A stretch of DNA of 64,000 bases. Origin: Bacteroidia bacterium. GTDB lineage: Bacteria > Bacteroidota > Bacteroidia > B-17B0 > Aurantibacillaceae. The stretch is from positions 1 through 64,000 of the forward strand of contig JAGNIU010000002.1 in the NCBI GenBank assembly GCA_018000995.1, written 5' to 3'. The notes beneath the pieces are model-generated. The model had not been told where the DNA came from, searched no databases, and was given only the letters and a program-made list of their open reading frames with translations. Position numbers and translations under genes: made by a program. This document shows positions 16,171 through 62,300 of the stretch, piece by piece. Positions within the stretch are counted from its first letter, which is position 1. Each line of letters begins with the position of its first letter.

Positions 16171-18603
16171 TTAATTAATCGTGTAAACGTATTGAACAGC
16201 GGCAGTTCGGGGTGACTCAATTTTCATTGGCCGTAAGGAATAATCTGCATTAAGGAGGTTATTGACGATAAACGAGATTTTATGTTGTTCGGTTAACTTA
16301 CAACTCAATCTCAAATCTATAATTTCGAAACCATGATGCGCATACCAATAACGAGTTGCCTTTATGGAATGAAAATAAGGGCTCTCGGCAGTTAAAGCCT
16401 CTAAATCCTGAAATGCTCTGTCAATATTTTGCATTCTACTGTAATATCTATAGCTAAATCCAACTGAGAATTTATATACGCGCAATTCGATATCAGCCTT
16501 AAACATATGCTTAAAACGATACTTCATAATATTATCAGTAGTATCTAAACTAGCTGATTTATAACTTAAGTTCTGACCAAAACCACCTAAAGATTTATCA
16601 CGGGCATACACACTATCGGGCGTTAAACATTCGGGTTCAACATAGGTATAACCAATCAAGGCTGCGATACCAAATTTTTTGTTTGCTTCATCTGATGTTA
16701 AAGCTAAAGACATATCCACCCCTCTTACACGCGAGTCGCCCGTATTTAAAAATTTAAATCCGATTAAAGCAACGCTAGGATCCCATACACCAAATAAATA
16801 TTCGATTGTATTTCTATATCGCTGATAAAAACCCGCTACATCTAAATATCCTTTTACATGGCCTATTTTGAAACCTTGCTTTACACCCATTTCGAAACTT
16901 TTGCTTTGTTCAGGTTTTAAATCCGGATTCGGGAATACACCAAACAATCCTGCTTTAGTCGTAATGTATCTTTCTGTTATGGTTGGATAACGGAAACCTT
17001 GTCCGTAAGAAGTTCTTACCCATGTTCCCTTTAAAACTTGCAGACTAGCTCCCGCTCTGAAAATTGGCGCCACAACACTTTGTAAATTGTTCATTTTAAA
17101 ATATTCGTATCGTACACCACCTGATAAATTCAATATCTTCCACATTTTTTTATCCAACTGCAAAAATCCGGATATGTTTACAATTTTATTATTGGGAGAA
17201 CCACTCGATGCATACAAACGGGAAAATGATGAAGAAACATTTCCTACAACACCACCAATAAATGCAAGGTCGATATTTTTAAAGATGCGTTGCAATTGAT
17301 ATTGCGCATAATACATTGTTCCTTTATTGCTCTGATTGTTCGAAATCACATTATCAGAACTAAAAATGCGGGCTACTAAACTATGGCTAACTCCTTTTCC
17401 GGGATTATAATTTATAAAAGGATCAATATTAAATAAGGTTTGGTTTTGCATGAATACAGCACCTGGATATCCTCTATATATTCCGCTAGAATCGTTTAAC
17501 CATGCTAATACCATGTTCGACTTACTTAGCATTACATTTCCATTAACGCCTGCGTTTAAACCAATAATTTTCTTAAATCTATAACGCAAATTAAAATTCA
17601 TCCGCCCTCTGATTTTCATCATGTCTTCGTTAGTAAAAGTTGGGATGCTATCTGTAATTAAGAATGCTTCCTTAATAACAGGAGGAATATATTTCATTGG
17701 CGGTGGCGGACCAATATATCCTTGATCGACATTTACATTTCCAGCTACTACAACATCCAAATTATTTTTTACGATTCGCGAATGCAGAAAATTTAAATTA
17801 GTGAAACCCGGTATAGATTCATTGTACCAGTTTTCTGCGGGCTTATTTGGTATACTATACTGACCTAAAGAATAATTAATAATTGTTTTTGGCTTACTAC
17901 GCGGATAAGCTGTACGGATATTAATAACACCATTTAATGCAGACGAACCATATAATACAGAAGAGGCGCCTTTAATAATTTCAACCTGCTCGATGTTTTC
18001 GACCGGAATATAACTCCATTCCGGTCTGCCGGCATCACCGCTTAATAAAGGAATACCATCCACTACAATTGCAACTCTACTTCCCACTCCAAATGTAAAA
18101 CCACTACCTCCTCGTATTTGCGGGTCGTTATCAATAATTGAAACCCCCGGTGCTTGTTCTAAAGCCGTTTCAATACTTGTGCTGTTTTTATTATGAATTA
18201 AATCCGGTTTTATAACTTCCATCGAAACGGTAAGTTCTTCTAATTTTTGCTCAAACTTGCCGGAGGAAACAACAACAGTCTCTAACATTTTAGCCATTGG
18301 TTTTAGCTTAATGTTTTTTTCGGCAGTTTGTCCTGGGGTAATTACAATCTGAAATGTATCGCTTTTTAAACCAACAAAAGCGCAAATAATTTTATAGGTT
18401 CCTGAGTCTAATTCAAGGGTATAGTTACCGTCGATATCAGCAGCAGTACCTTTTGATAAATTATTTAATAATTGAATGGTTGCACCCGGTAAAGTTTCTT
18501 TGGTATCGAAATCGGTGATCTGACCTTTTAAAGTACCGATTTGCTGCGCAAAAGACAAATTGCAACAAAGAATTAAAAAGACAGTTAAAAAACGGAGTGT
18601 CAT
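16171..18603 (-). CDS. TonB-dependent outer-membrane receptor with CarboxypepD_reg-like domain
   Basis: About 810 residues from the ATG at 18601-18603, which gives a clean signal peptide ending SFAQ; a TTG four codons upstream lies beside the terminator hairpin and is unlikely to be used. Residues about 27-110 are a carboxypeptidase-regulatory-like domain (GQITDFDTKETLPGATIQL). The plug follows (VVVSSGKFEQ; SRVAIVVDGIPLL; EIIKGASSVLYGSSALNG), then a long beta barrel ending in the usual TBDR terminal region (ISFIVNNLLNADYSLRP). No SusD-like partner is adjacent, so metal, vitamin or siderophore uptake is as likely as glycan uptake. The substrate cannot be told from sequence alone. Confidence 0.93.
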   Translation of the reverse strand: MTLRFLTVFLILCCNLSFAQQIGTLKGQITDFDTKETLPGATIQLLNNLSKGTAADIDGNYTLELDSGTYKIICAFVGLKSDTFQIVITPGQTAEKNIKLKPMAKMLETVVVSSGKFEQKLEELTVSMEVIKPDLIHNKNSTSIETALEQAPGVSIIDNDPQIRGGSGFTFGVGSRVAIVVDGIPLLSGDAGRPEWSYIPVENIEQVEIIKGASSVLYGSSALNGVINIRTAYPRSKPKTIINYSLGQYSIPNKPAENWYNESIPGFTNLNFLHSRIVKNNLDVVVAGNVNVDQGYIGPPPPMKYIPPVIKEAFLITDSIPTFTNEDMMKIRGRMNFNLRYRFKKIIGLNAGVNGNVMLSKSNMVLAWLNDSSGIYRGYPGAVFMQNQTLFNIDPFINYNPGKGVSHSLVARIFSSDNVISNNQSNKGTMYYAQYQLQRIFKNIDLAFIGGVVGNVSSSFSRLYASSGSPNNKIVNISGFLQLDKKMWKILNLSGGVRYEYFKMNNLQSVVAPIFRAGASLQVLKGTWVRTSYGQGFRYPTITERYITTKAGLFGVFPNPDLKPEQSKSFEMGVKQGFKIGHVKGYLDVAGFYQRYRNTIEYLFGVWDPSVALIGFKFLNTGDSRVRGVDMSLALTSDEANKKFGIAALIGYTYVEPECLTPDSVYARDKSLGGFGQNLSYKSASLDTTDNIMKYRFKHMFKADIELRVYKFSVGFSYRYYSRMQNIDRAFQDLEALTAESPYFHSIKATRYWYAHHGFEIIDLRLSCKLTEQHKISFIVNNLLNADYSLRPMKIESPRTAAVQYVYTIN

Positions 18604-18613
18604 GCTTAAAAAC

Positions 18614-18645
18614 AAAATCCGCCCCTAATATAGGAGCGGATTTTT
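18614..18645 (-). terminator. intrinsic terminator after the T9SS protein gene
   Basis: Stem AAAATCCGC/GCGGATTTT with an inner CCT/AGG extension and loop AATAT. On the minus strand it ends in a T-rich run. It lies between the T9SS gene (ends 18659) and the TonB receptor start (18603). Confidence 0.75.
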
Positions 18646-18658
18646 AAAAAATTATTAA

Positions 18659-19663
18659 TTATTCGATGATGAATTTTCCTGATTTTTTGTAATCAGCACC
18701 AACAACCTGATAAAGATATAATCCGTTATTGAAGCCTGACATATCAAAAGCATTTAGTTTATCGCCTTCAAGATTGTGAGAAGAAACTACTTTACCTGTT
18801 AAATCATAAATGGTAAGAACAGCATTATCATCACTTCTCTTTGTAAAATCAACGTAAGCGAATTTATTATAACTGTATACTTTAATATTCTGTTCTCTAT
18901 TTATATTCTCTGCAACTTTAGTTGAATTATAAATTGGCAATAAATCATCTAACCATAGCTTACTTCCATTACCGGTAAAGCCTGGCGCTGTTGTTAATTG
19001 ATTAGCAGAAGAGGTTACGTTAATCATAATATAAGAAGGAGTTGCAGCGCTAGTATAAGTAAATGGAACGCTAAAACGTTTCCAAGTAGTATTGTTAGAC
19101 ATTGCAGTTAAGAACAATGCATCGCCAATTTTATTCATTGAAGAATCAGGATGATTACTTGCTACAGGAATTTCAGGATCGTAATAATGTCCTTTGTGTA
19201 ATATGGCACGAATTTTTCCTTGTTCACTTGAGGCTCCTGTACCTGAAGTAGCTTGAGTGTACTGATACCATCCTGTTAAACTATCCGGACGTCCGGTAAA
19301 AGCCATTCTTCTAATATCTGTTCCTGCAATTGTACTTAGAAAACCTTCGTTTTTGTTTGAACTTGGCGCATTAACAATTCCGGTTGTAACGTTTCCGTTA
19401 ACAACTGCAATAATGTAATACTTGGTTTCAACACGAGCTGAGGAAGTGCCTGCGTGTTTAATGGTCATATCCTGGTAACAAGTTTGTGGGCCTGACGAGG
19501 CTAATCCTGTACCGGACTTATTAGAGTACCATCCATTAGGCTCTGTTGAAACTCCCGGAGATGCGTTTCCTCCCCATAGTTCAAAACCTGCATTTCCAAT
19601 GCTTGTTTGTGCTGTGGTGTAAATTGAAGTTGCAATTAAAAAAAGAGTAAATAATTTTTTCAT
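18659..19663 (-). CDS. secreted T9SS type A cargo protein with PCMD/CBM-like domain
   Basis: 334 residues. A signal peptide (ends IYTTAQT) is followed by a beta-rich domain with N-terminal GFELWGG and a late LWLDDLLPIY strand, the pattern of putative carbohydrate-binding (PCMD-like) jelly rolls. The last 80 residues are a type A sorting domain: AVLTIYDLTGKVVSS, then MSGFNNGLYLYQVVG and a basic end KKSGKFIIE. The protein is expected to cross the outer membrane through T9SS and be released or anchored after C-terminal cleavage. It has its own -7 motif upstream and a terminator downstream, so it is probably transcribed alone. The ligand is unknown. Confidence 0.85.
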   Translation of the reverse strand: MKKLFTLFLIATSIYTTAQTSIGNAGFELWGGNASPGVSTEPNGWYSNKSGTGLASSGPQTCYQDMTIKHAGTSSARVETKYYIIAVVNGNVTTGIVNAPSSNKNEGFLSTIAGTDIRRMAFTGRPDSLTGWYQYTQATSGTGASSEQGKIRAILHKGHYYDPEIPVASNHPDSSMNKIGDALFLTAMSNNTTWKRFSVPFTYTSAATPSYIMINVTSSANQLTTAPGFTGNGSKLWLDDLLPIYNSTKVAENINREQNIKVYSYNKFAYVDFTKRSDDNAVLTIYDLTGKVVSSHNLEGDKLNAFDMSGFNNGLYLYQVVGADYKKSGKFIIE

Positions 19664-19738: not shown

Positions 19739-21961
19739 CTAGTTTGTCTTATTAATTATTTTCAGAGTGCTTTCACCTATAACCTTAAAGGCAGTGCGAC
19801 GATTTTTTTGGTGAGCCGCTTCAAATTCTTCGCTCTTAGGTACCATTTTGTTGATTTCCGCTTCCGGTATTATAGGTTGTTTTTCGCCCCAACCTTTAGC
19901 AATTAGACGGTCTTTTTTAATGCCCTTAGAAATTAAATAATCAACACAAGATTGAGCGCGGGCTTGTGATAAACGCTCGTTATAAGCATCGTTACCGCGC
20001 GCATCGGTGTGCGCATTAATAGCAACTGAAAGATTATCATTAAGATTTAATAAGTCAACAATCTTATCTAAGTTCTCTTTTGATTTCGGACGTAAAGTAG
20101 CTTTATCAAAGTCGTACTCAATTCCTTCAATCTCAACTTCGCCATCAGGAATTTTGCTTAAAAAGAAATCTTGTTCTAAATGTGTGGTCTCCGTTAAACC
20201 TTTTGTAGCCTTACTTGCTTTATCAGCTAAATATTTTGTTTTTTGAGCCTTCATGAAGAATTCTCTGTCGGGCTTTAAAGCAGTAAAATAATATCCTTTC
20301 TCGTCGGTAACAACATATAAGGGTTCATCATCACCATGTACGTCCGAAATAGTTACAAGTGCGCCCGGAATCGGATCGTTAGTTACCGCATCAAATACAT
20401 AACCACTTATATCAAAAAATATAGGTGCATTTAGGAATTCATATATATCATAACAATGTCCACCTTCACAAGGTTCTCTATCACTAGAAAAGAAGCCGCG
20501 TTGCTGAGTTCTTTCCATAATAAAATAAGCATCATCCTTACTAGAATTAAAAGGACCTCCCATGTTTTTTGGGAAAGTGTAAACAGAATCATCTACATTA
20601 AATGAGGCTTTAAAAATATCTAAGCCACCCATACCCGGTAAGCCGTTAGATGCAAAGTATAAAGTATTAGAAACACCATGGTAGAAAGGCGACATCTCAT
20701 CGCCAGCGGTGTTAATATTTCTTCCTAAATTTTTTGGTGGACCAATCTGTCCTTCTTCATCAATCACACATTCCCAAATATCAAAGCCTCCAAAACCACC
20801 AGGGCGGTTTGATGAATAATATAAACGCGTTCCATTAAAATTCACAAATGGATGCATAGATTTTTTTCCGGGTAAATTCACATTCTCACCCAACTTAAAA
20901 GCTTCGAAAAATTTACCATCGGTCATTTTGGCCATAAAAATAAATACCTCATCACGGTTTACTTCACTCCATCTGGTAAATAACATCACCTCATCAGGGG
21001 TGATATATCCTGCACCTTCATGCAAAACAGAGTTAACCGGCCTTCCGAAGTTTATTGGCCTTTGCCAAACACTGTCTAAACATTCTGTATAATATAAATC
21101 ACAAAGGAATTTTGAGTCTTGTTTTTCAGGATCGTTAACAACACCATTACGACGGGCACTTGTAAATATTATTTTATTAGGACTTAAATAATACTGAGGC
21201 GCAAAGTTGGCTGTACCTTTGTTAAAGATTAAAGTATCAAACATTCTTACAATCACTTCACGTTTTACGTTAGTCATTGTATCCAAAGCAAAATAACAAC
21301 TCGATTCCTTTTTCTGAGCAATGAGCATTAACGAATCATTCTCGGGTGAATGTGTTACAAATTCATCAAACTCAACTAAAGCTTCGTTGTACTTTTTTAA
21401 GGCCATTAAAGATACGCCATAATAATAACGCGCATCGGGATAAGCATTTCTATCGACACAGGTTTTATAAGTTTTTGCGGCGTTTTTATAATCTGCATTT
21501 AAGCGATAAGAGTTTGCTAATTTCCAATAAACATAATCGGTACTGGTAATAGGATTGAATTTAGGTGTAGGTTTTTTCTTGCGGGAAGTATCGCCTGATA
21601 TTGCTTGTACGCTATCCGTTTTTACTTGGGTTGAATCTTTTTTTGTTTTTCTTAGTTGTAACTCAGGAACCTTTACTAATGATTTCATTTTAAGGTTTAC
21701 CATTTGTGCTTCGTAAGGCAAAACAAAAATATCTAACACTGTTGTGTCGTCTAAAACCTTAGCATAATATGCTGCAGCGGTAGCCCAATCCTTAGCTTTA
21801 TAAGCATTCTCGGCGGTTAACATCCATAACTTTTTTGATTGGCTAAAAGAAATGCTGCTAAGTGCAATTAAAAAAACAAGGCTTAGCTTTTTTATGCTGC
21901 CGCCAATAAAAAATTTGCGGCTAAAATTGTGTATGTGAAAAAGGGGATGTTGGGATTTCAT
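19739..21961 (-). CDS. PorE-like OmpA family protein (TPR, beta-propeller, CRD, OmpA)
   Basis: 740 residues with this order: signal region (hydrophobic about residues 26-41), TPRs (about 45-230), PD40/beta-propeller blades (about 250-530; FFSSDREP, YYSSNRPGGFGGFDIWE, YFASNGLPGMGGLDIF), carboxypeptidase-regulatory-like domain (about 540-610; GYVFDAVTNDPIPGALVTI) and a C-terminal OmpA peptidoglycan-binding domain (INAHTDARGNDAYNERLSQAR). This is the architecture of PorE, a periplasmic T9SS protein linking the machine to peptidoglycan. It is 3 bp downstream of a PorP/SprF gene, supporting a T9SS role. Many Bacteroidota carry several paralogues, so it may serve this locus rather than be the core PorE. 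The n-region is unusually long (about 25 residues). Confidence 0.88.
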   Translation of the reverse strand: MKSQHPLFHIHNFSRKFFIGGSIKKLSLVFLIALSSISFSQSKKLWMLTAENAYKAKDWATAAAYYAKVLDDTTVLDIFVLPYEAQMVNLKMKSLVKVPELQLRKTKKDSTQVKTDSVQAISGDTSRKKKPTPKFNPITSTDYVYWKLANSYRLNADYKNAAKTYKTCVDRNAYPDARYYYGVSLMALKKYNEALVEFDEFVTHSPENDSLMLIAQKKESSCYFALDTMTNVKREVIVRMFDTLIFNKGTANFAPQYYLSPNKIIFTSARRNGVVNDPEKQDSKFLCDLYYTECLDSVWQRPINFGRPVNSVLHEGAGYITPDEVMLFTRWSEVNRDEVFIFMAKMTDGKFFEAFKLGENVNLPGKKSMHPFVNFNGTRLYYSSNRPGGFGGFDIWECVIDEEGQIGPPKNLGRNINTAGDEMSPFYHGVSNTLYFASNGLPGMGGLDIFKASFNVDDSVYTFPKNMGGPFNSSKDDAYFIMERTQQRGFFSSDREPCEGGHCYDIYEFLNAPIFFDISGYVFDAVTNDPIPGALVTISDVHGDDEPLYVVTDEKGYYFTALKPDREFFMKAQKTKYLADKASKATKGLTETTHLEQDFFLSKIPDGEVEIEGIEYDFDKATLRPKSKENLDKIVDLLNLNDNLSVAINAHTDARGNDAYNERLSQARAQSCVDYLISKGIKKDRLIAKGWGEKQPIIPEAEINKMVPKSEEFEAAHQKNRRTAFKVIGESTLKIINKTN

Positions 21962-21964
21962 AAA

Positions 21965-22957
21965 TTACAAACGAGGGCAGTTTCTTACTTCTTTTAAATT
22001 TTTCTTTCCTGCTAAATAAGTAAATGATATTTCAAATGCTCCTCGTGTTTTAGAAGCTGTTTTTAAAGTAGAGGTGTTAAAATCATAACCAAACTTAAAA
22101 ATGTAATTGTCTTTTCTAAATCCTGCATAAACAATACTCGCATCTTTTGCACGGTAAGTGAATCCTGCTAGCAGGAAAAACTTATCATTTTTAAAATAAT
22201 AACCTGCATCGAAAGCATAAGTTTGTTCGAAGGCTGTTCCTTGACTCATTACTAATACTTTCGGGATCACGTATAATAACTCGCTGATATTTACACGTAC
22301 ACCTCCATGTCCGTAAATACGAATTGGTAAATGGTTGGCCTGATCGAAAAATGTTTCTTTTGGTTGTGTTAAGTTAAAACCTGATACACCAATAAATGGA
22401 TTAAGCCGGGATTGTTGTTTTGAAAAGAAATACAATAAACCTGCATTTAACTGAGGCAATATTTGAGATTGACGTGTGAATTTTTCGTTAGTAGGTAATC
22501 CAGTATCAAAACTACCACCATTAGTTGATGTGTATTGATTATCGAAAGTGTACAACTTATACTCCACCTGTTTTTGAGTAAAGCCGCCTTGTAAACCGAA
22601 TGACAATTGATGAAACTTTTTCTTGTCTAACGGCACAGTGTAAGCAGCGGATAACATTCCTTGAAATACATTATAGTTACCAATACCTGCACGCATTTCT
22701 ATTATCTGAATACCAAATCCCCACTTACCCTTAGGCATATCAGCACTAATTAATGCTGTATTGTAAGGTTTATATGCAACCGAATTCCATTGATTACGAT
22801 ATTGTGCATGCACTCTAAATTTAGCATCAATAACACCAGTCATAGCCGGATTTAAAAACAACGGACCGCAATCGTATAACGATAAGTGAAAATCCTGTGC
22901 TTTACTTTTTCCAATAAAGACAACAGAAATAACTATGTATAAAAATATCTTTTTCAT
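21965..22957 (-). CDS. PorP/SprF family outer-membrane protein, copy 2
   Basis: 330 residues. A signal peptide is followed by the family opening HLSLYDCGPLFLNPAMTG and RVHAQYRNQWNSVAYKPYNT, then barrel strands and family-typical AYTVPLDKKKFHQLSFGLQGG. SprF of Flavobacterium johnsoniae is needed for secretion or anchoring of the type B CTD adhesin SprB, encoded beside it. Here the type B cargo gene lies immediately upstream (6 bp gap) and a PorE-like gene downstream (3 bp gap). The direct inference is a dedicated outer-membrane partner for the 1255-residue cargo. Confidence 0.92.
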   Translation of the reverse strand: MKKIFLYIVISVVFIGKSKAQDFHLSLYDCGPLFLNPAMTGVIDAKFRVHAQYRNQWNSVAYKPYNTALISADMPKGKWGFGIQIIEMRAGIGNYNVFQGMLSAAYTVPLDKKKFHQLSFGLQGGFTQKQVEYKLYTFDNQYTSTNGGSFDTGLPTNEKFTRQSQILPQLNAGLLYFFSKQQSRLNPFIGVSGFNLTQPKETFFDQANHLPIRIYGHGGVRVNISELLYVIPKVLVMSQGTAFEQTYAFDAGYYFKNDKFFLLAGFTYRAKDASIVYAGFRKDNYIFKFGYDFNTSTLKTASKTRGAFEISFTYLAGKKNLKEVRNCPRL

Positions 22958-22963
22958 TTTCTG

Positions 22964-25900
22964 TTATCTTAATATAGTGACGTCGCCTGTTTTTCGAACC
23001 GACTTATTATTAAACATATCTACATCTAAAACCCAGACATAAACACCAAGCGGCGCATCTTGTCCTTTGTAGGTACCGTCCCATCCTATTTTCTGGTCTG
23101 TAGTTTCAAAAACTAATTCGCCCCAACTATTATATAGTCTGAAAATCATTTTTTCAAAAGGTCCGCCTTTTACAAATAACAAATCATTGTTTCCGTCTTT
23201 ATTTGGAGTAAATGCTGTAGGTACTAAAGGCAATAAGGTAACCTCAATTGATTTTGTAATAGAATCTCTACAGCCGTTATTATCAATTACAGTAAGCGTG
23301 ATATAGTAATTACCTTGATTGTTATAAAAGTGAGTTGGATTTTGTCCACTCGCACTTATTGAATCACCAAAATTCCAAAACCAATTAACAATTGAATTAC
23401 TTGGGGTTGAGAAATCTGAAAAATAAACTGTTTCTAATGCAAGTGTTGGATTGTTTGTCATTCCAAATTCAGCAGTAGGTTCAGGATTTACAGTTACCGG
23501 TTTAGAAATTGAAGATTGACAACCTTTATCAGAAGTAACAATTAAATTAACGTTATATAAACCGGCAGCTGTATAAGTATGTATTGGGAATTGATTAGTT
23601 GCTAACCCACCATCAGCAAAATTCCAATTCCAACTTACAACTGTGTCAGGACTGTTTACAAATGAAAGATCAGTAAATGTTGTTGGTAATGATTGGCAAG
23701 CGTTACTAAAATTAAAATCAGCAACAGGTAAACTATTAATAGTAATAGGTTTTTGAATGGAATCGATACAACCATTGGCTCCTGTAACAACATAAGTAAC
23801 AGTATATGTATTTGCTAAAGTATAAGTGTGTACAGGATTACCTGTGTTAATTGCAGTGAAACCATCTCCAAAATCCCACGTTTGAAAAACAATACCCGGG
23901 CTTGATAAATCAGAAAAATTAACCTGACTATTTACACAAGAATTGCCATTCGTAAAGTTTGCAGTAGGTGAATTCTTAAATGTTATTTTTAAAGTGTCCT
24001 TAACCGCATTACATCCTTTATTATTTGTCGAAGCCAAAGTAAATGTTACAGAACCTGTTAGAATATCGGAACCACTAGGACTATAACTTCCGTTTAAAGT
24101 AGTATTGTTAGGTGTAAAAGTTCCTGTTCCGCTGGATGCCCACTGACCTGTTCCGGTAAATCCTGTAATCACACCATTTAGAAGTACATTGGCGTTATTA
24201 CATACTGAAGTGTTAATGCCGGCATTAACATAAGGTAATTTTAAAATATCAATACGGATTGTATCAGTTTCAGGGATCGGACAAATTCCTTGTGCAGAAA
24301 TAACAAAAATAACATAACCTTGAATGGTATCATTAACACTCATGGTGTAAGTTGGATTTATAACATTGATATTACTGAATGCGCCTGTTCCGGAAATAGC
24401 TGTCCACGTAGGTGTAGTGGCTGCGCTTTGGAAAGTAGCAGAACCATTCAAATTAATAATAAATGCGCTTGCACAAATTGTATCGTTTGGTCCGGCAGTT
24501 ACAACAGGCTTCGGGAAAATATTAATATTAAGAGTGTTGTTTACCGCTGCACATAAACCATTATTTGTTGAAGTTAGCGTTAATGTAACAACGCCTCCAC
24601 TTGCTAATTCAGCAGCGCTTAAAACGTAATTTGTATTAAATGTTGTATCAGTAGGTGTAAAATAACCGCCGCCATTTGTTGACCAAACACCAGTACCAAT
24701 TCCACCTGTTATTGTTGCTCCTGAAACGGCAACTGTTGGTGTGTTAGTACAAACATTTATATCAGGTGGGGTAGAAACTACAGGAGGGTTTGTAAAATTA
24801 ATAATGACTTGATCATTTGCTGCCACGCAACCACCAATCGATGCTAAGGTTAAAGTAGCAGATCCTGCGGAAGCATCTCCAGGTGAAGGCGTATAGGTTG
24901 TTACCATAGCCGTTGGCGGGAAGAAAATACCTGTTCCGCCACTCCATGTTTGTCCGGGTGCACCCGTAACAACTCCTGTTAGGTTTATAGGCGTTAAATT
25001 ATTTTTACATCTTGTTATTACTGAAGGTGTAGCTGTTACAGAAGGGCCTTGCACAATATTTAAAGTAACCACATCACTAATGTTTCTACAATTACCGGTT
25101 GAGGTTAAAGTGAATGTTAAACTGCTTTGCAATAATTGTAATGGCGTAAGAGTATAAACACCACTAACTGTTGTTATAGAGGAAGTGTAAGCGCTTAACG
25201 ACCCTGTTGGGGTTGTCCAATATCCTGTTATCGCACCACCTGAAATTGTTCCGGTGAGTGCCACTGTATTTGTTGCGCCTGCACAAACTGTAAAGTCAGG
25301 ACCAGCAGTAATATTAACCTTACGACGGAAAGTAGACATATAATGGAATAAACCACCTGTACCAACATCTCCATTAATAATACCAAGAGCAAATACATCT
25401 GTACTGTTTCTGATTTCGTGAGCTCCAATAGGAATTACACCAATCGCAAATTGTTTTTGCGCACCCATCCATCCCGGAGGACCAGGCACTACGGAAAAAT
25501 CGGCAGCGGTTAATAAAGTTGCATTACCATTAATGGTAAAATTACCTTCATTGCCCGCTCTACATAATACGTTTAAGAGGAAAGGTTGAGTGTTATTACG
25601 TGAAAACACAACGGTATCTGAACCTGCACACTCTAACGGTGGTAATATTGCTCCGCCCGATTCGCAACCATAACCACTGGTTTGCCAAACGTAAACCGGT
25701 TTACTAGCCTGAACAGAAGTTAAAGGATTTACAATTGGATATTGTTTCGTGTCTCCTTTATTCAAAGTATAAGTTGTTGGAGTTCCATCGTCAATTGTAA
25801 TTTGTGTAAAGTTATCGGTTGCAACAACGAAAATACTTTCTGCCGATAAAGGAAACATAAATCCTTTATTAGCAATATAAGAATCACCAACAACATCAAC

Positions 25901-26731
25901 AGGAACAATTTGATCACCAATTAAATCATAACAACCTCCACCGGCCGTTCTAACAGAGTCATCAGCAACTGTAACTGAAATAGGATGGTTTGATACAACG
26001 ATCGTACCACCTAAATTTTGTCCGGGATTAACTGTATTTGTGTTAATAGTTACATTTTCGACTGTATAAACATCACCTGTATTCATCCCAACACTATAGG
26101 TGATGTTTGCCAAATGACCAACAACGTTGCAACGAGGTGTAATCCAAACAACAGTGCCTGGCATGGTAGCAACAATGTTAATCTGTTGCTTTGGTTTTGT
26201 ATTAATACCATCACCATTTAAATCGCCTGTAATGTTTTGGTTATTCCAGGTGTTTTGAAAAGGACAAACAAACTCAGTACCTAAACCGTTTTGTCCTTTT
26301 AATGAAAATGTTTCCGGATTATTAAAACCTGGAGCTCTTGTAACAACGTCATAAACTGCTGTTATTTTGTTCGACGAGGTTATTTTTAATCCATACGGTA
26401 AAACTGCGTTTGCAGGGCGTGACTCTAAAGAATCGTAAGCAAAATTAGTTGTTCCTGCTGCTGCATCTCTCCAAAAAGTATAATCAAAAGCACGTGATGC
26501 AGGGATCGTAAATGTAGTATCGTATTTGTTTGGTAAAATAGCGGCCGGTTGTCGTATACGCACAACAGTACCTGCGTTACCTGCAATATGAACTTTAACA
26601 GCATCTTTCCATGTGTGATCCGGTGTTACCCAAGGAGCAGCGAACCAGAAAACAGTATCTATCTGCGAAAACACTGAAGTGAATTTCATCATGCAGAATA
26701 AAACAAATACTATTACTTTAACTTTTTTCAT
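22964..26731 (-). CDS. T9SS type B surface protein: IgGFc-binding-like N-domain, Ig-like repeats, PKD, CHU_C (copy 2)
   Basis: 1255 residues with a signal peptide. Residues about 25-470 resemble the IgGFc-binding N-terminal domain family (FWFAAPWVTPDH; GLKITSSNKITAVYDV; QIVPVDVVGDSYI; VYVWQTSGYGCESGGAILPP). Then come five Ig-like repeats (about 475-900), each with a leading Cys and a TGxWxxxxG turn. Three PKD domains follow (about 905-1155; QTWDFGDGF, WNWNFADGG, WFWNFGDS). The end is a type B sorting domain (gliding motility-associated; TAFTPNKDGNNDLLFVKGG, then GWDGTYKGQDAPLGVYVW). The protein is predicted to be displayed on the cell surface and to stick to surfaces, cells or glycans. Its PorP/SprF partner is 6 bp downstream. 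It is a close architectural duplicate of the protein at 27804-31247. Confidence 0.9.
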   Translation of the reverse strand: MKKVKVIVFVLFCMMKFTSVFSQIDTVFWFAAPWVTPDHTWKDAVKVHIAGNAGTVVRIRQPAAILPNKYDTTFTIPASRAFDYTFWRDAAAGTTNFAYDSLESRPANAVLPYGLKITSSNKITAVYDVVTRAPGFNNPETFSLKGQNGLGTEFVCPFQNTWNNQNITGDLNGDGINTKPKQQINIVATMPGTVVWITPRCNVVGHLANITYSVGMNTGDVYTVENVTINTNTVNPGQNLGGTIVVSNHPISVTVADDSVRTAGGGCYDLIGDQIVPVDVVGDSYIANKGFMFPLSAESIFVVATDNFTQITIDDGTPTTYTLNKGDTKQYPIVNPLTSVQASKPVYVWQTSGYGCESGGAILPPLECAGSDTVVFSRNNTQPFLLNVLCRAGNEGNFTINGNATLLTAADFSVVPGPPGWMGAQKQFAIGVIPIGAHEIRNSTDVFALGIINGDVGTGGLFHYMSTFRRKVNITAGPDFTVCAGATNTVALTGTISGGAITGYWTTPTGSLSAYTSSITTVSGVYTLTPLQLLQSSLTFTLTSTGNCRNISDVVTLNIVQGPSVTATPSVITRCKNNLTPINLTGVVTGAPGQTWSGGTGIFFPPTAMVTTYTPSPGDASAGSATLTLASIGGCVAANDQVIINFTNPPVVSTPPDINVCTNTPTVAVSGATITGGIGTGVWSTNGGGYFTPTDTTFNTNYVLSAAELASGGVVTLTLTSTNNGLCAAVNNTLNINIFPKPVVTAGPNDTICASAFIINLNGSATFQSAATTPTWTAISGTGAFSNINVINPTYTMSVNDTIQGYVIFVISAQGICPIPETDTIRIDILKLPYVNAGINTSVCNNANVLLNGVITGFTGTGQWASSGTGTFTPNNTTLNGSYSPSGSDILTGSVTFTLASTNNKGCNAVKDTLKITFKNSPTANFTNGNSCVNSQVNFSDLSSPGIVFQTWDFGDGFTAINTGNPVHTYTLANTYTVTYVVTGANGCIDSIQKPITINSLPVADFNFSNACQSLPTTFTDLSFVNSPDTVVSWNWNFADGGLATNQFPIHTYTAAGLYNVNLIVTSDKGCQSSISKPVTVNPEPTAEFGMTNNPTLALETVYFSDFSTPSNSIVNWFWNFGDSISASGQNPTHFYNNQGNYYITLTVIDNNGCRDSITKSIEVTLLPLVPTAFTPNKDGNNDLLFVKGGPFEKMIFRLYNSWGELVFETTDQKIGWDGTYKGQDAPLGVYVWVLDVDMFNNKSVRKTGDVTILR

Positions 26732-26748
26732 TTTATATTATATATAAA

Positions 26749-27804
26749 TTAATCTTTTTTAGGTTCTGAAGTGTTTTCAGGTGTTTTGTTTTCCTCTTTT
26801 TTTTCAGGACTTACTTCTTCAGTTTTCAATTCAGTAGGTGTTGTTTTTTTATTTTTTAAACTTTGCTTAATGCTGTTGTCTTTAATTTTAAATTGCTCTT
26901 CATCTGCATTCACTACTTTCTTCTTAATGAAATTATAGTTCAAACTAATTTCGTGACTACCTTGATTATATTTTCTTATTGTAGACATAGAGTAGTCGTA
27001 GGCATAAGCGATGTTTAGCTTTTTAATAACTGTAACGCCCATCATAAAACTTACAGCATCATCGGTACGGTAGTTGCCGCCAATCCAAACCATATCTTTA
27101 AACGACAATTTCATAGTGTATTCTAACTGAGCAGGAACCGGCTCGTTATACTTTAATAATATTGAAGGCTGAAGAGCAAAATCTTTACTCAATTTAAAAT
27201 TATAACCAATAACTGAATAATAATGCGGCGTTAATCTGCCGGTAGGATTTTTCCATCTGATTTTGTTATTCAACATGTTCATGTCAGATAAACCAAAGAA
27301 AAATCTCTCTCCGTAGAAATAAATTCCGGCATTAGCATCTAGTACGTTTGCGTTAAGCGTATTTCCTGTTAAGTAATCGTCGCCTTTATCATATGCGTTT
27401 ACATCATACAATCTAACCGTGTATTGTTTTACTCCACCAGATAATCCAAAACTTAACCTTGTTTTTTTTGTAACCTTAACGTTATAAGCAAAAGTTACAT
27501 AACCTGTGTTTGTGGATATTAATCCTGTTTTATCTGATACAATCATTCCTCCAACCGCAACATTTTTCGCTTTTTTAAGTGGCCCGTGTAACGAGATTAA
27601 ATAAGTTTTTGGTGCGCCCTCAAAACCTACCCACTGATTACGGTAATTAATATTAGCCTGAGCGTAAGGCTTAGAACCAACTACTGCCGGATTATAAGCG
27701 TAACTGTTTAATAAATAGTTTGTATAAAGGGATTGCTGTTGAGCTTTTCCGAAAAACGAAAATGCAAAACAAATAACAACAGCTATTTTAAAATTCTTAT
27801 TCAT
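26749..27804 (-). CDS. PorP/SprF family outer-membrane protein, copy 1, with charged C-terminal tail
   Basis: 351 residues. The signal peptide ends FGKAQQQ, followed by the family signature LYTNYLLNSYAYNPAVVGS and ANINYRNQWVGFEGAPKTY, then barrel strands to about residue 290 (SHEISLNYNF). Unlike copy 2 it carries a further 60 or so residues rich in Lys, Glu, Pro and Thr with no strand pattern. The gene overlaps the upstream type B cargo gene by 1 bp and precedes the second cargo gene by 17 bp. It is probably the dedicated translocon-associated partner of the 1147-residue cargo. The tail could contact peptidoglycan or other T9SS parts; this is only inference. Confidence 0.92.
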   Translation of the reverse strand: MNKNFKIAVVICFAFSFFGKAQQQSLYTNYLLNSYAYNPAVVGSKPYAQANINYRNQWVGFEGAPKTYLISLHGPLKKAKNVAVGGMIVSDKTGLISTNTGYVTFAYNVKVTKKTRLSFGLSGGVKQYTVRLYDVNAYDKGDDYLTGNTLNANVLDANAGIYFYGERFFFGLSDMNMLNNKIRWKNPTGRLTPHYYSVIGYNFKLSKDFALQPSILLKYNEPVPAQLEYTMKLSFKDMVWIGGNYRTDDAVSFMMGVTVIKKLNIAYAYDYSMSTIRKYNQGSHEISLNYNFIKKKVVNADEEQFKIKDNSIKQSLKNKKTTPTELKTEEVSPEKKEENKTPENTSEPKKD

Positions 27805-30800
27805 TACTTCATTAACAATAGAGTTCCTTTAAAAATATTTTCGTTTTCTTTCCGGTTAGGATCGTTGAGGTTGATGATAAAATAATAGGAGGCTACAGGT
27901 AAAGCATCACCTTTATAGGTTCCGTCCCATGCAATATCATAACCAGTAGAATGGAATATTCTTAACCCCCACCGATTATATATCTCAATTTCTGCTTTAG
28001 GGTAAAAAGTATTTATAAAATTCAAATTCCATATATCATTTTTCCCATCTCCATTCGGCGAAATCGCATTCGGAATTAACTCAGTAATTTCATTCTTCAC
28101 CGTTAATATTTTTACGTATGATTTTGCAGAATCGGAACAACCAAATTGATCTTGCACTACTAAAAGAACCGTATAAGTTCCGTTTGCGTAATAAACATTA
28201 TTAGGATTTTGAATTGTACTGGTAGTAGCACCCGAATTATTGAAATCAAAATTCCAATACCAACTTACGGCATTCTTTGAAGTATCTAAAAACACAACAT
28301 TAGAACCAATATTAAATCCGCCATTATTAGTGAATACAAATCCTGCTTCCGGACGAGGGGTAATTGTTATTGGTTTACTTAAAGTGTCAGTACATCCTTT
28401 TTTACTGGTTACAATGTGTGTAATTGTATATGTACCAGGGAAATTAAATAATTGTGAAGGATTTTGTAAAGAAGAAATTCCTGTTGTACCAAAACTCCAA
28501 TAATAACTTCCTATAGTATCAGGGAAAGCAATGTTAGAGCTATCTTTGAAATTAATTTGTAAAGCTGAGCCTGAACAAAGGCGACTATAACTCCAATACG
28601 TATTTGGTAAATTAAATACAGTGATAGGTTTCTGAATTGTATCATAACAATTGAAAGAGTTTCGCACTATTAAGGTTGCAGTGTAAGCACCTGCAACGGA
28701 ATAGGTGTGTAAAGGATTTATAGCAGTAGAAGTGCCGCCATCACCAAAAGCCCAATTCCATCCTGCTAATGCACCAATATTAGGATTAGAAGCATCTGTA
28801 AACTGTGTGTTTTTATTTAAACAAACTGTAGTAGATGCAAAATTTGCACTTGGCTTATCTCTAAAGTCAATTCTAACCTGGTCAGTTACTGCTAAACAAT
28901 TACCATTGTTTGTTGATGTTAAAGTAAGAATAACAAAACCTACTGTAAATTCGCTTGTGGCAGGAGTGTAACTTGTACTTAATACAGTTGTAGTTGGTGA
29001 AAATACGCCGGCTCCTCCGCTCCACACACCTGTTGTTGCGCCACCACTTACAATACCGTTTAATGCAGTTACATAATTATTTTTACAAATACTTAAATCA
29101 ACACCAGCGTTTACATTTGGTGAAGGCGTGAAATTAACTTTAATACTATCTGTAACAGGTAAACAGTTTCCATTATTAGTTGATGATAAATAAATAGTAA
29201 TTCCCGATGATGCTAAATCGGATGAACTTGGTAAATAGTTTGTATTTAATTGAACGTTGTTCGGATTAAAAATTCCGGTTCCTGTTGTTGTCCATTTACC
29301 TGTTAAACTTGCTCCACTTACAGTTCCTGTTAATGCAATTGATGCGTTATTAATACATCTTGTAATAGTTGTTGGTCCTGCATTTACTGCCGGTGGTTTT
29401 GTAAATGTAACAAGCATAGTATCGGTTTCAGCTCTACATAAACCATTATTGGTTGACGTTAAAACCAATTTCACCTGACCTACTGCTGTATCTGCACTTG
29501 ATGTAAAATATTGCGGATTAAAAATTGTTGTTGTTGGTGAAAAAACTCCAGTTCCGGTTGTTGACCAAGAACCTGTATTGGTTGCGCTCACTACGTTTCC
29601 ATTTAAACTAACAGTTGCATTGTTACCACATAAAACTTGATCGAAAGACGCGTTAACAATTGGAGCCGGATTTACATGTAGCGAAATTGAACCAACGCTT
29701 GAAGGACATTGTCCTGTTGAAGTTAAACTGATTACAATATTCGTATCCAAATTACTTGGAACATAAGTGTTAGTTAAAGCTACGGTACCTCCGGCAAACG
29801 AACCAAATCCGGTTGTTGTCCATGCCCCGGTTATATTGCCTCCACCAACAACTCCATTTAAAGAAAATGTTGAGTTAGCACAAGTTGTTGCCGATAAAGG
29901 GCCGGCAATTGCAAAAGGATAAGAAGCCCATTCTGAATGATAAGCATAAGTACTACCATTGTTGTTTGAACCTTGATGAGTTCCAAAACCGTATATATCT
30001 CCTGTATTTGAAAGAATATTATATGAACCAAGAGGGATTTGAGAAAGCGGATAATAAATTTTTGCTCCGACAACTGTTCCACCTGTGCCTGGAACAACTG
30101 TAAATGCACTTGCAGGAACCGGCTGAGAAACTGAATTACTTAATAAAGTGAAGTTACCTTGATAACCTGTTCTTGTAAATACATTTATTGACAGGGAATC
30201 ATTTGTTGTTCTTGTAAATGAAGTTGAATATGTACCTGCACAATAAAAATGCGGAACCTGCGCACCACTTAATTTAGATCCATGAGCACTAACATGAAGA
30301 ACATAAACAGGTTTGGTTGATTTAATATAAGTTAAAGCTTGAGTTGCACTTGCACTATACGTTTCGCCCGTGTTAATTAAAGTTTGAACTGTAGATGTGC
30401 CATTATATATGGTAAGACTGGTTGAGTTAACTGAAGCTAAAATAAAATATTTATCATTTCCTGATTGGCTTTTTGCAATAACAAAATCATTGCCTGCATA
30501 ACTTGAATTAGTAATTTGATCAGCAACTGTACTATTAGATCCGCCATTTAATAAATTAGAAGAAGATACTGTAATAGCTACGGGTTTATTGGCAGAGATA
30601 ATTGTTCCTCCTAATTTAGTAGGAGCTAATGTAGTTGTATCCTGACAACTAAAAGTTTCGCCGGCATTTAAAACAACTATAAACGAAACATCTTTTGCGT
30701 GTCCGATAATATTTGCTCGGGGTGTTATTAAAATGGAAGTTAAGTTTTGCGTAGCTACTATATCAATCGCTGATGCTGAACGTGGATTTGTTGTTGGTGT

Positions 30801-31247
30801 TGGCATTGCTGTACGCCAAGCGTTTTGAAAAGGAGTATAGAAATCTGTACCAATTGCTTTTCTCCCCTTAAGACTTATCATTTCTTTATGAGTTGGCGAT
30901 TTAATAGTGTAAACAATCGAAACACTAGTGCTGGTACTGATATAAATTCCGCGGGGTAAAACTGAATTGCTTGGTGTGCTTTCAACAGCTGCAACAAATG
31001 AAGTTAAATCAATTGAGTCGACAGAAAAAGCTGGAATGGCTTTTGAAATTGGAACAAAAGTACCATTGGCGGGTTGGCGCAAGTACACGTTACTTGCAGC
31101 ACCATAGGTAGTAATGTACATCTTGATTGGACTTTGTCCCAAACTAGAGGAGATATCAGGAGCTACAAACCAAAAAGACGTATCTATTTGTGCGTCAATT
31201 TTTAAGAGTCCAATAAAAAATAAAAAAAGAAAGTATAAACGCTTCAT
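27804..31247 (-). CDS. T9SS type B surface protein: IgGFc-binding-like N-domain, Ig-like repeats, PKD, CHU_C (copy 1)
   Basis: 1147 residues with a signal peptide. The N-terminal domain (about residues 20-450) matches copy 2 in order and motifs (DTSFWFVAPDISS; LPRGIYISTSTSVSIVYTI; GTDFYTPFQNAWR; PVYVLHVSAHGSKLSGAQVP), the IgGFc-binding-like pattern. Four Ig-like repeats follow (about 450-790; WTTTGTGIFNPN type), then three PKD domains (WNWAFGDGG, YYWSFGTTG, WYWNFDFNN) and a type B sorting domain (IPNAISPNGDGKNDIWNLNF, AWDGTYKGDALPVASYYF). The first gene of the cargo/PorP locus. Predicted to be exported by T9SS and displayed on the surface, possibly for adhesion or gliding; no enzymatic motif is visible. 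Confidence 0.9.
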   Translation of the reverse strand: MKRLYFLFLFFIGLLKIDAQIDTSFWFVAPDISSSLGQSPIKMYITTYGAASNVYLRQPANGTFVPISKAIPAFSVDSIDLTSFVAAVESTPSNSVLPRGIYISTSTSVSIVYTIKSPTHKEMISLKGRKAIGTDFYTPFQNAWRTAMPTPTTNPRSASAIDIVATQNLTSILITPRANIIGHAKDVSFIVVLNAGETFSCQDTTTLAPTKLGGTIISANKPVAITVSSSNLLNGGSNSTVADQITNSSYAGNDFVIAKSQSGNDKYFILASVNSTSLTIYNGTSTVQTLINTGETYSASATQALTYIKSTKPVYVLHVSAHGSKLSGAQVPHFYCAGTYSTSFTRTTNDSLSINVFTRTGYQGNFTLLSNSVSQPVPASAFTVVPGTGGTVVGAKIYYPLSQIPLGSYNILSNTGDIYGFGTHQGSNNNGSTYAYHSEWASYPFAIAGPLSATTCANSTFSLNGVVGGGNITGAWTTTGFGSFAGGTVALTNTYVPSNLDTNIVISLTSTGQCPSSVGSISLHVNPAPIVNASFDQVLCGNNATVSLNGNVVSATNTGSWSTTGTGVFSPTTTIFNPQYFTSSADTAVGQVKLVLTSTNNGLCRAETDTMLVTFTKPPAVNAGPTTITRCINNASIALTGTVSGASLTGKWTTTGTGIFNPNNVQLNTNYLPSSSDLASSGITIYLSSTNNGNCLPVTDSIKVNFTPSPNVNAGVDLSICKNNYVTALNGIVSGGATTGVWSGGAGVFSPTTTVLSTSYTPATSEFTVGFVILTLTSTNNGNCLAVTDQVRIDFRDKPSANFASTTVCLNKNTQFTDASNPNIGALAGWNWAFGDGGTSTAINPLHTYSVAGAYTATLIVRNSFNCYDTIQKPITVFNLPNTYWSYSRLCSGSALQINFKDSSNIAFPDTIGSYYWSFGTTGISSLQNPSQLFNFPGTYTITHIVTSKKGCTDTLSKPITITPRPEAGFVFTNNGGFNIGSNVVFLDTSKNAVSWYWNFDFNNSGATTSTIQNPNNVYYANGTYTVLLVVQDQFGCSDSAKSYVKILTVKNEITELIPNAISPNGDGKNDIWNLNFINTFYPKAEIEIYNRWGLRIFHSTGYDIAWDGTYKGDALPVASYYFIINLNDPNRKENENIFKGTLLLMK

Positions 31248-59330: not shown

Positions 59331-62300
59331 GTGAGAGTAATCACTTATACCCAATTTACCTTTCCAAATAAGATATTTCTTGTTCTAATTTGCTGTCTCT
59401 TTTTTCTAAAATCCAACACTTTACAATCTCAATGCCAGGTTTCAAATGCCGGCACTAGCCAAACTTTATGTATTGGAACTAATGCGTTGATGGCAGCAAA
59501 CACCGCAACAGGTGGCGGAATTGGAAGATGGACTTTAGTTTCAGGAACAGGTGTGATTACAAATTCTCTTATTCCTAATACAACTATTACAGGTTTAGCA
59601 GTAGGAACAAATGTCTTTTCGTGGACCATCACTAACGGAACATGTACTCCATCTGCATCAAATGTTACCATTACAACACGACCACTTCCAACTGTAGCTA
59701 ACGCCGGACCAAATCAAAATATTTGTGTTACAGTCGGTAGTGCCTTGCTGGCAGGCAATAATCCTATCAATGGAACCGGTTTATGGGTAAAAATTTCAGG
59801 CCCCGGAACAATAACCACTCCAACAAATCCAGCATCAACTATTACAGGACTAACGGTCGGCACCACTGTATTAACTTGGTCTATTAGTAATTCACCGTGT
59901 ACATCTTCAACGGCCAACATGACCATCACGATACGGCCTGCCCCTACGGCGGCAAATGCCGGAGTAAGTCAAACACTTTGTGCAACAACAGGTACTGCCA
60001 CTGCAACTTTAAATGGTAATAACCCTACTTCAGGAACAGGTATATGGGTGAAAGTTTCAGGCTCAGGAACAATAACAAATCCGCTTGTAAGAAATACAAC
60101 TGTTACAGGTTTAACACCAGGATTAACAGTACTAACTTGGTCAATAAGTAATCCTCCATGCGCTTCTTCTGTTTCTAATATGACTATTACTACCAATGGG
60201 ATGACATCGACCGCTCTTGCCGGACCTGATCAAACTGTGTGTGTAAGTTCGAGTGCAACAATGGCAGCCAATACACCTACCGCCGGAACAGGTCAATGGT
60301 TTTTAATCGGTGGGTCAGGAACAATTGTTTCGCCAAATAGTCCAACTTCCGTTATTACAGGATTGGGTGTTGGGAACAATACTTTTAGGTGGCGTATAAC
60401 CAACCCACCCTGCGCTACACGTCTAGATAATATTATTATTGTTGGAAGAGCAGTGCCTTCCATTGCTAATGCCGGCGTTGACCAAACCGTTTGTGTTAGT
60501 ACAGGATTCACTACACTTGCCGGTAATACACCAACTGCAGGGGTTGGACGCTGGATAAAAGTTTCTGGGCCGGGCACAATTACAAATTCTCTTACTGCAA
60601 ACTCAACTTTAACCGGACTAACGGTCGGGACAACTGTACTTACCTGGTCTATCTCAAACTTACCGTGTACCAGTTCAGTAGATAATGTTACAATAACAAC
60701 GAATCCTCTTCCATCAATAGCAGCAGCAGGAGTTGATCAAACTGTTTGTGTAAGTTCAAGCGCAACTATGGCAGCTAACACTCCTACTGCGGGTTCCGGA
60801 CTTTGGACTTTAGTTAGTGGTGCAGGAACAATAACTACACCTACTAGTCCCGTCACAACCATTACAGGTTTAGGAGTTGGGAATAATACTTTCCGATGGA
60901 CCATTTCTAATCCTCCTTGTACTGCAACTTTTGATAATATAATTATTGTTGGGAGAGCTGTGCCTTCCATTGCTAATGCCGGAGTTGACCAAACTATTTG
61001 TGTTAGCACAGGATCAACTACACTTGCCGGTAATACCCCAACTGCAGGTATTGGAGCTTGGGTAAAAGTATCAGGGCCAGGTACAATTACAAATTCACTT
61101 TCGCCAACATCAACATTAACCGGACTAACGGTTGGGACAACTGTACTCACTTGGTCTATCTCAAACTTACCTTGTACAACTTCGGTTGATAACGTTACTA
61201 TAACAACGAATGCTTTACCATCCATAGCAGCAGCCGGAGTTGATCAAACTGTTTGCGTAAGTTCGAGTGCTACTATGGCAGCTAACACTCCTACTGCGGG
61301 TTCCGGACTTTGGACTTTAATTAGTGGTGCGGGAACAATAACAACGCCTAACAGTCCTGTTACAACCATTACAGGTTTGGGAGTTGGGAATAATACTTTC
61401 CGATGGACTATTTCAAATCCACCTTGTACTGCAACTTTTGATAATATAATTATTGTTGGAAGAGCTGTGCCTTCCATTGCTAGTGCAGGTTCAAATCAAA
61501 CCATTTGTATTTCGTCGCCAACAACAACAATGTTAGCAAACACAGCAACCGTTGGCATTGGAACATGGTCGTTAGTTTCGGGAACCGGGATTATAACAAA
61601 TTCATTATCTCCAACAACATCAATTACCGGACTTGCAGTTGGTACAAATGTTTTTGCGTGGACAATTGGAAATGCTCCTTGTGCTGCTTCAACTTCCACA
61701 GTATCTATAACTGTAAGCGATGTTCCTACAATCGCAAACGCAGGAACAAATCAAACGCTTTGTATTTCTTCACCAACAACAACTATGAATGCTAACACAG
61801 CAACGGTTGGCATTGGCACTTGGTCGTTAGTATCAGGTACAGGTGTAATAACAAGTTCATTATCTCCAACAACATCAATTACCGGACTTGCAGTTGGTAC
61901 AAATATTTTTTCTTGGACAATTTCAAATTCACCATGCGCTCCCTCAATTTCAACCGTTGCAATTATTGTGAGTGATGCGCCAACCATTTCTAATGCAGGC
62001 GCAAACCAAACATTGTGTATTAGTAGTCCGAATACATTAATGACGGCCAATTCAGCAACAGTTGGCGTAGGAACTTGGAGTTTGATTTCCGGTTCAGGAA
62101 CAATTACTAATTCACTTTCACCAATAACTTCAATTACTGGATTGGCCATTGGAACTAATGTATTTGCATGGACTATTTCGAATGCACCTTGTTTAGCTTC
62201 TTCATCAACAGTTGCAATAGTTGTAGAAGATGTTCCAACAATTGCAAGTGCTGGATTAAGTCAAACACTCTGTATTACAACACCAACAACAACTATGAAT

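Follow-up and report, generated by a model that had tools for sequence, protein, structure and literature searches.

The five genes described here lie on the reverse strand of a 64,000-nucleotide stretch of DNA from an uncultured Bacteroidota bacterium (assembly GCA_018000995.1, contig JAGNIU010000002.1, positions 1 to 64,000), to which, at its full length, we refer as the window. Read from 31247 to 19739, they encode a type B cargo of the type IX secretion system (T9SS), a carrier of the PorP/SprF family, a second cargo, a second carrier and a PorE-like protein, which we call cargo A, PorP-A, cargo B, PorP-B and PorE-like, separated by -1, 17, 6 and 3 bp. An earlier note, made from the DNA sequence alone, had given this order, and its coordinates and gaps were reproduced exactly from the open reading frames (ORFs). 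The genes are:

27804..31247, reverse strand: cargo A, type B T9SS surface protein, 1147 amino acids (TIGR04131, PF13585, PKD; PF17517 head)
26749..27804, reverse strand: PorP-A, PorP/SprF-family carrier, 351 amino acids (TIGR03519, 251.5 bits)
22964..26731, reverse strand: cargo B, type B T9SS surface protein, 1255 amino acids (TIGR04131, PF13585, PKD; PF17517 head)
21965..22957, reverse strand: PorP-B, PorP/SprF-family carrier, 330 amino acids, predicted FadL/PorV-like barrel (TIGR03519, 175.5 bits; Foldseek)
19739..21961, reverse strand: PorE-like protein, 740 amino acids, with TPR, beta-propeller, carboxypeptidase-regulatory and OmpA domains (family scans)

The cassette is a genuine, widely conserved operon and a variant of the published operon type that combines a type B cargo, an SprF-like carrier and PorE. 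What is new here is a pattern in the C-terminal tails of the carriers that follows the neighbouring PorE gene, while the double cassette extends the published kind of operon. An alignment of PorP-B from 25 loci, used for a single scan of named genomes, yielded 80 loci that were kept, and the conserved cargo-PorP-PorE order for which the earlier note had proposed a genome survey was found complete, with all five genes, in 56 of them. The remaining 24 are mostly interrupted by contig ends, and one locus (L092) was counted as incomplete because a longer antisense ORF hid its PorP-B ORF in the ORF filter. Wherever a locus extends far enough, the PorE-like gene lies 3' of PorP-B, and the median gaps over the conserved loci are 1, -4, 3 and 3. 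The five-gene arrangement is beyond chance.

PorP-B was matched in 56 of the 87 genomes of the family (E 1e-90). PorP-A orthologues (E 1e-130 or better) were present in 22 of 60 relatives, every one of which also has a PorP-B orthologue; PorP-B occurs without PorP-A in three of the 60, two of these being less than 80% complete. A trio of a B-type secretion signal, PorP-B and PorE without the A pair was seen at L090, L097, L098, L111 and L131. The nearest named contigs belong to metagenome-assembled genomes called Sphingobacteriaceae or Bacteroidia, the PorP-B of the closest named relative being 91% identical, and more distant named relatives with the locus are called Fluviicola, Crocinitomicaceae and Flavobacteriales.

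Each cargo has an IgGFc_binding-like head, followed by repeats, by PKD domains and by a type B C-terminal domain (CTD), and a hydrophobic N-terminus is visible in each sequence. Their TIGR04131 scores (65.3 bits for cargo A, 39.7 bits for cargo B) exceed the curated cut-off of 35 bits for type B CTDs, and both pass PF13585. The PF17517 heads were missed in Pfam scans of the whole cargoes and were detected once the N-terminal parts were scanned separately. The corresponding features are:

30144..30857, reverse strand: IgGFc_binding-like domain of cargo A (PF17517, E 4.8e-25, N-terminal 460 amino acids scanned alone)
27813..28076, reverse strand: type B CTD of cargo A (CTD search and CTD tree)
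25382..26251, reverse strand: IgGFc_binding-like domain of cargo B (PF17517, E 3.2e-30)
23012..23224, reverse strand: type B CTD of cargo B (CTD search and CTD tree)

Exactly two proteins in the whole 3.6 Mb assembly carry a PF17517 head, namely cargoes A and B, which are 33% identical over their heads and 35% over their C-terminal 200 residues, and which we judge from these comparisons to be true paralogues. Because the head was found in no other protein of the genome, the two cargoes probably function together. A PDB sequence search with the head of cargo B returned no match.

The carriers present a different picture. Both exceed the TIGR03519 cut-off of 90.55 bits, yet they are 26% identical to each other. 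In a tree of 73 PorPs from which the last 16 residues had been trimmed, PorP-A groups with carriers lacking PorE neighbours in a clade of 18 (97% by the Shimodaira-Hasegawa-like approximate likelihood ratio test, SH-aLRT), and PorP-B in a separate deep clade of five, together with four paralogues from the same genome (support 99). The closest paralogue of PorP-A in the genome (L010) has no adjoining PorE gene and lacks the tail motif described below. A tree of 45 neighbouring CTDs splits into A and B just as the PorP tree does, the CTD of cargo A grouping in a clade of cargoes whose carriers have no adjoining PorE. Tandem duplication of one cargo-carrier module was rejected on the low identity of the PorPs and their different clades, the cargo heads being 33% identical. 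The description of the locus as duplicated modules, proposed in the earlier note, therefore suits the cargoes as paralogues but does not fit the carriers, which come from different deep lineages; the cassette thus consists of two related cargo bodies joined to two old, distinct CTD-carrier lineages. The predicted model of PorP-B resembles PorV and FadL barrels: its top Foldseek match was 8gl6_F, whose entry bears the title Type 9 Secretion System RemA-CTD bound complex, and further top matches include T9SS translocon chains and FadL, while PDB sequence searches gave no match for PorP-B or for a gldK-adjacent PorP.

Trees, adjacency counts and distances all match each CTD in lineage to the PorP adjoining it. 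An A-type CTD stood next to an A-type PorP 81 times and a B-type next to a B-type 108 times, with no mismatches and five cases at an edge, these counts containing repeats from loci retrieved twice under two numbers. PorP and CTD distances were correlated over 45 pairs (Mantel r 0.82; permuted maximum 0.315), and also within the source genome only (r 0.73, 8 pairs), where none of 5000 permutations reached as high a value. This match between carrier and secretion-signal lineage favours pairing of each cargo with its own partner. When the CTD of cargo B and PorP-B were modelled as a fusion with AlphaFold2, an adjacent in-frame gene pair being read through the intervening stop as a single chain, as in the other fusion reported below, the predicted template modelling score (pTM) was 0.54, a value from which we claim no contact.

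Genome-wide, a strict one-to-one rule between cargo and PorP is not possible, since the assembly holds 46 type B CTD matches (44 above the cut-off) against 15 PorP/SprF matches. Of the 46 CTD genes, nine are immediately followed by a PorP, two are one gene further away from one and 35 have none nearby, so that most type B cargoes must share carriers and the idea of one carrier for one cargo is limited to linked pairs. At one locus (L005:2656-7233), two successive type B cargoes precede one PorP and a PorE-like gene, and there one carrier may serve two cargoes. The translocon gene SprA lies on another contig, as does a gldKLMN-like set accompanied by a PorP (L004). The locus had been described as a self-contained export-and-display cassette: the ordered set of two cargo-carrier pairs followed by a wall anchor is indeed kept across many genomes, but it is not self-contained, with SprA and gldKLMN-type genes located elsewhere, and its carriers are not duplicates.

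The fifth gene encodes a PorE-like protein and not a scored PorE. It has TPR, PD40 (beta-propeller), carboxypeptidase-regulatory and OmpA domains in the order of PorE, but scores 339.9 bits with the NCBI PorE model and 341 bits with the CHU_0125 model, under the respective cut-offs of 600 and 620; the genome's best match to the PorE model, which lies elsewhere (490 bits, at C74), is likewise under 600. Its first 45 residues contain no cysteine, so that the signal peptide lacks that of a lipobox, and none stands at that place in aligned relatives. If the protein bridges to the outer membrane, the missing lipid anchor would require a protein contact there. Its peptidoglycan-binding-like part is:

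19850..20116, reverse strand: OmpA domain of the PorE-like protein (domain scan; D653 and R668 kept by 27 of 27 sequences)

The best solved relative of this part is 6top, which we take to be the crystallised C-terminal domain of PorE, and we presume that D653 and R668 have the role that such residues play in OmpA-like domains.

We then compared the C-terminal tails of 74 complete PorP-family proteins, 14 from the source genome and 60 from 60 stretches of other genomes; these stretches were hand-picked among the best-scoring matches listed, with weaker PorP lineages under-sampled. Classes of PorE and GldJ/GldK neighbours were assigned with small custom-built profiles, and the regular expression for the motif was defined after viewing this first set. 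A tail ending in PR[YFLI] plus at most one residue was found in 23 of the 27 PorPs with a PorE-like gene next to them and in 1 of the 47 others (Fisher p 4.7e-14), and it was the only tail feature that tracked PorE. In 40 further stretches held out as other rows of the same list, which cover the same genomes and are not taxonomically independent, the motif occurred in 4 of 6 PorPs with PorE next and 1 of 33 without (p 8.7e-4). At L183 and L229 the motif is present with no adjoining PorE gene within the stretches read. A tail cysteine was rejected as a general PorE marker, cysteine in the last 10 residues being rarer with PorE (3/27) than without (15/47). Within the cassette, the two carriers differ in their ends:

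21968..21979, reverse strand: CPRL C-terminal motif of PorP-B, Cys327 to Leu330 (25 of 25 sequences share C, P and R)
26752..26907, reverse strand: C-terminal tail of PorP-A, charged and cysteine-free, with a conserved DNS[IVLA]-type motif (61 PorP-A)

PorP-B ends in CPR[LI] in 77 of 78 sequences, the other reading CPQL. PorP-A tails carry the DNS[IVLA] motif in 57 of 61, with neither a PR-type motif (0/61) nor a cysteine in the last 40 residues (0/61).

Other tail classes accompany other neighbours. PorPs followed by a GldJ/GldK-like gene end in CPxF in 10 of 18 cases and in an NVRFL-like sequence in 6 of 18. At L003:8190-9137 (forward strand), L192, L194, L196, L206, L213, L216, L219 and L220, in many families, a PorP with two tail-region cysteines and an end such as ...CPSF stands directly before a GldJ/GldK-like lipoprotein gene and, by analogy with the published disulfide between SprF and GldK (PMC12635249), may be a track-linked carrier. 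A further tail class, ending in PCPKF, TCPKF or PCAKF, occurs at L006, L217, L251 and L256, where the order is cargo, PorE-like, PorP.

An alternative is that the cysteine of PorP-B is disulfide-bonded to the GldK track in the manner of SprF, in which case cargo B would be a gliding adhesin that moves instead of a static one. C-tail cysteines join both SprF and PorG to GldK (PMC12635249), PorP-B has one invariant tail cysteine, and the GldK-like protein of the genome has three internal cysteines. SprF, however, carries an invariant Cys-Xaa-Cys, and none of the PorPs examined, PorP-A and PorP-B included, has a CxC within its last 20 residues, on which ground mobile attachment of the SprF type was rejected; moreover, the gene that follows PorP-B is always PorE-like where the locus reaches that far, and the mobile substrates of F. 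johnsoniae are reported not to lie beside porE genes (PMC12618676). We regard a GldK-linked PorP-B as highly improbable.

Starting from the observed gene order, conservation, lineage matching, tail motifs and domain content, we infer secretion, carrier specificity, tail docking, wall anchoring and joint function in a scheme that we hold to be somewhat more probable than its alternatives taken together. Cargoes A and B, related and adhesin-like, would cross the outer membrane through SprA of the general T9SS of the cell, and each would be picked up by the carrier encoded directly 3' of it, as the congruence of CTD and carrier lineages suggests, and then stay bound to that carrier. The periplasmic tail of PorP-B ending in CPR[LI] would most likely grip the adjoining PorE-like protein, whose OmpA domain would fix PorP-B and cargo B to peptidoglycan as a static anchor. 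TPR domains bind free C-termini in other systems, so that the tail could plausibly be received by the TPR part of PorE. Since PorP-A comes from a lineage lacking PorE neighbours and its charged tail does not carry the motif, we expect that cargo A is probably attached in another way than cargo B, either in the outer membrane only or via a further partner.

Several elements of this scheme have published precedents. Cargo retention on the carrier is described for SprB-SprF and for PG1035-PorP (PMC9143113, PMC12618676), a PorE-PorP-PG1035 complex has been reported (PMC9143113), and so has a static type B substrate whose carrier gene precedes a porE homologue (PMC12618676). The rule of a neighbouring carrier, of the SprF-SprB type, and the idea of PorE as a wall link, both already proposed for this locus in the earlier note, thus find support in PMC12618676 and PMC9143113. 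As to the docking site, PMC9143113 states that PorP may bind the TPR or the propeller domain of PorE, and nothing more specific.

Several results weigh against the scheme. Four PorPs beside PorE lack the motif, ending in VCPVFM, IPCDRY, IRLKFL and PRYYIY, one of which is an extended form. On a 109-row tree, PorE adjacency had to change 9 times and the motif 6 times, and of 7 independent pairs with good support and a difference in PorE, 2-3 showed a motif change in the same sense, 0 in the opposite sense and 4-5 none, a co-change that is consistent in direction but that cannot reach significance with so few pairs. Carrier lineage, tail and neighbour co-occur, and shared descent could explain much of the link between motif and PorE. 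The AlphaFold2 fusion of PorP-B with residues 1-515 of PorE did not show docking (pTM 0.47, with a predicted local distance difference test score, pLDDT, of ~47 in the tail). Finally, partial distance correlations in 57 cassettes did not favour the A-A and B-B pairs over the crossed ones (PorP-A with CTD-A 0.22 and with CTD-B 0.18; PorP-B with CTD-B 0.14 and with CTD-A 0.23), own and crossed pairs not being separated inside these cassettes because shared species history dominates.

This last result would also be expected if the carriers were interchangeable, the pairs being co-inherited through linkage only and either PorP exporting either cargo. Published crosstalk between some F. johnsoniae CTDs and carriers, and three orphan substrates with one common carrier (PMC12618676), point the same way. 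That crosstalk, however, concerns CTDs of high identity, against 35% over the C-terminal 200 residues here, and interchange is at odds with the matching of CTD and PorP lineages over the 45 pairs and within the source genome; we consider it improbable.

The same set of distances bears on a further alternative, in which both carriers and both cargoes bind the single PorE-like protein, the five genes encoding one machine and their products forming one wall-anchored, two-headed complex. The operon has one PorE gene, its order is fixed in 56 of 80 loci and PorP-A orthologues never occur without PorP-B (22/22), all of which would fit such a complex, but PorP-A lacks the PorE-associated motif (0/61) and falls in a clade without PorE neighbours, and the trio of PorP-B, PorE and CTD-B also exists without A, for example at L090, L097, L098 and L111. 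Distances of PorE, with the others controlled for, followed those of PorP-B (partial r 0.36) and CTD-B (0.46) and were barely tied to those of PorP-A (0.09) and CTD-A (0.11). A two-headed complex thus seems unlikely to us, and we retain the scheme in which the PorE-like protein anchors PorP-B and cargo B.

A wider and more tentative version of that scheme, which we consider doubtful as a whole, would treat the periplasmic C-tails of the PorP/SprF family as address labels. A free end of PR plus an aromatic or aliphatic residue (PRYF, PRFL, CPRL) would be recognised by PorE-family anchors, perhaps through TPR, fixing the carrier to the wall, the two-cysteine ...CPSF tail would go with a GldJ/GldK-like neighbour, and carriers with neither neighbour would have neither tail. 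In the cassette, the label would be locked by a disulfide between Cys327 of PorP-B and a conserved cysteine of its own PorE-like protein, and PorP-A would be unlabelled, so that one operon would display two related adhesins anchored differently. Across 57 aligned cassettes, Cys222 of the PorE-like protein is present in 57 and Cys498 and Cys503 in 55, the other two having PorE ORFs cut by the locus end; Cys498 and Cys503 occur in 7 of 7 cassette-type PorEs and in 0 of 26 PorE-likes that neighbour other PorPs; at two of these (L011, L012) the PorP has a tail cysteine. As the Cys498/Cys503 pattern belongs to one co-inherited lineage, a disulfide from Cys327 to Cys498/Cys503 or to Cys222 is kept as speculation.

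Comparison with known systems places the B half of the cassette close to published operons. Five operons of F. johnsoniae, among them Fjoh_3952-3951-3950, encode a type B substrate, then an SprF-like carrier, then a PorE homologue (PMC12618676), and their order and kinds of gene are those of cargo B, PorP-B and PorE-like, the third to fifth genes here. According to the description in that paper, each has one substrate and one carrier, whereas the cassette adds a preceding pair with a carrier of another lineage, kept across many genomes. PorE-PorP-PG1035 of P. gingivalis (PMC9143113) likewise comprises a type B cargo, a PorP carrier and a wall-linking PorE, the same kinds of part as module B, but with one PorP, one type B substrate and a PorE that is a lipoprotein, unlike the PorE-like protein of the cassette with its missing lipobox cysteine and its score under the PorE cut-off. 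The gliding pair SprB-SprF (PMC12635249) similarly joins a type B adhesin to its own PorP-family carrier, whose C-tail links a periplasmic partner; that tail is an invariant Cys-Xaa-Cys joined to GldK, whereas PorP-B has a single cysteine in CPR[LI] and PorP-A none, and SprB, unlike the cargo B module, has no PorE neighbour. Neither the double cassette nor the PorE-linked tail motif was found in the literature searched, outside which lies the F. johnsoniae survey of Kulkarni et al., which may contain such loci.

Both fates of type B substrates, the moving gliding track and the static wall anchor, are described in PMC12618676. A tail pattern that follows the partner gene is a short, easily mutated candidate for what directs a carrier to track or wall, and is the part of the finding worth a bench test, for which a conserved operon with one labelled and one unlabelled carrier and two related cargoes would be a natural system. 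Should the tail pattern reflect inheritance only, the finding would still be a well-conserved variant of an operon type already known.

Downstream of the cassette, at 16171-19663 of the window, lie genes for a protein that combines a PCMD domain with a type A CTD and for a TonB-dependent receptor, which are found likewise in several loci of the same genus. A strong terminator-like hairpin is present at 18614-18644, and the G+C (guanine plus cytosine) fraction rises up to 0.42 at 60001-62000, compared with ~0.34 across most of the window.

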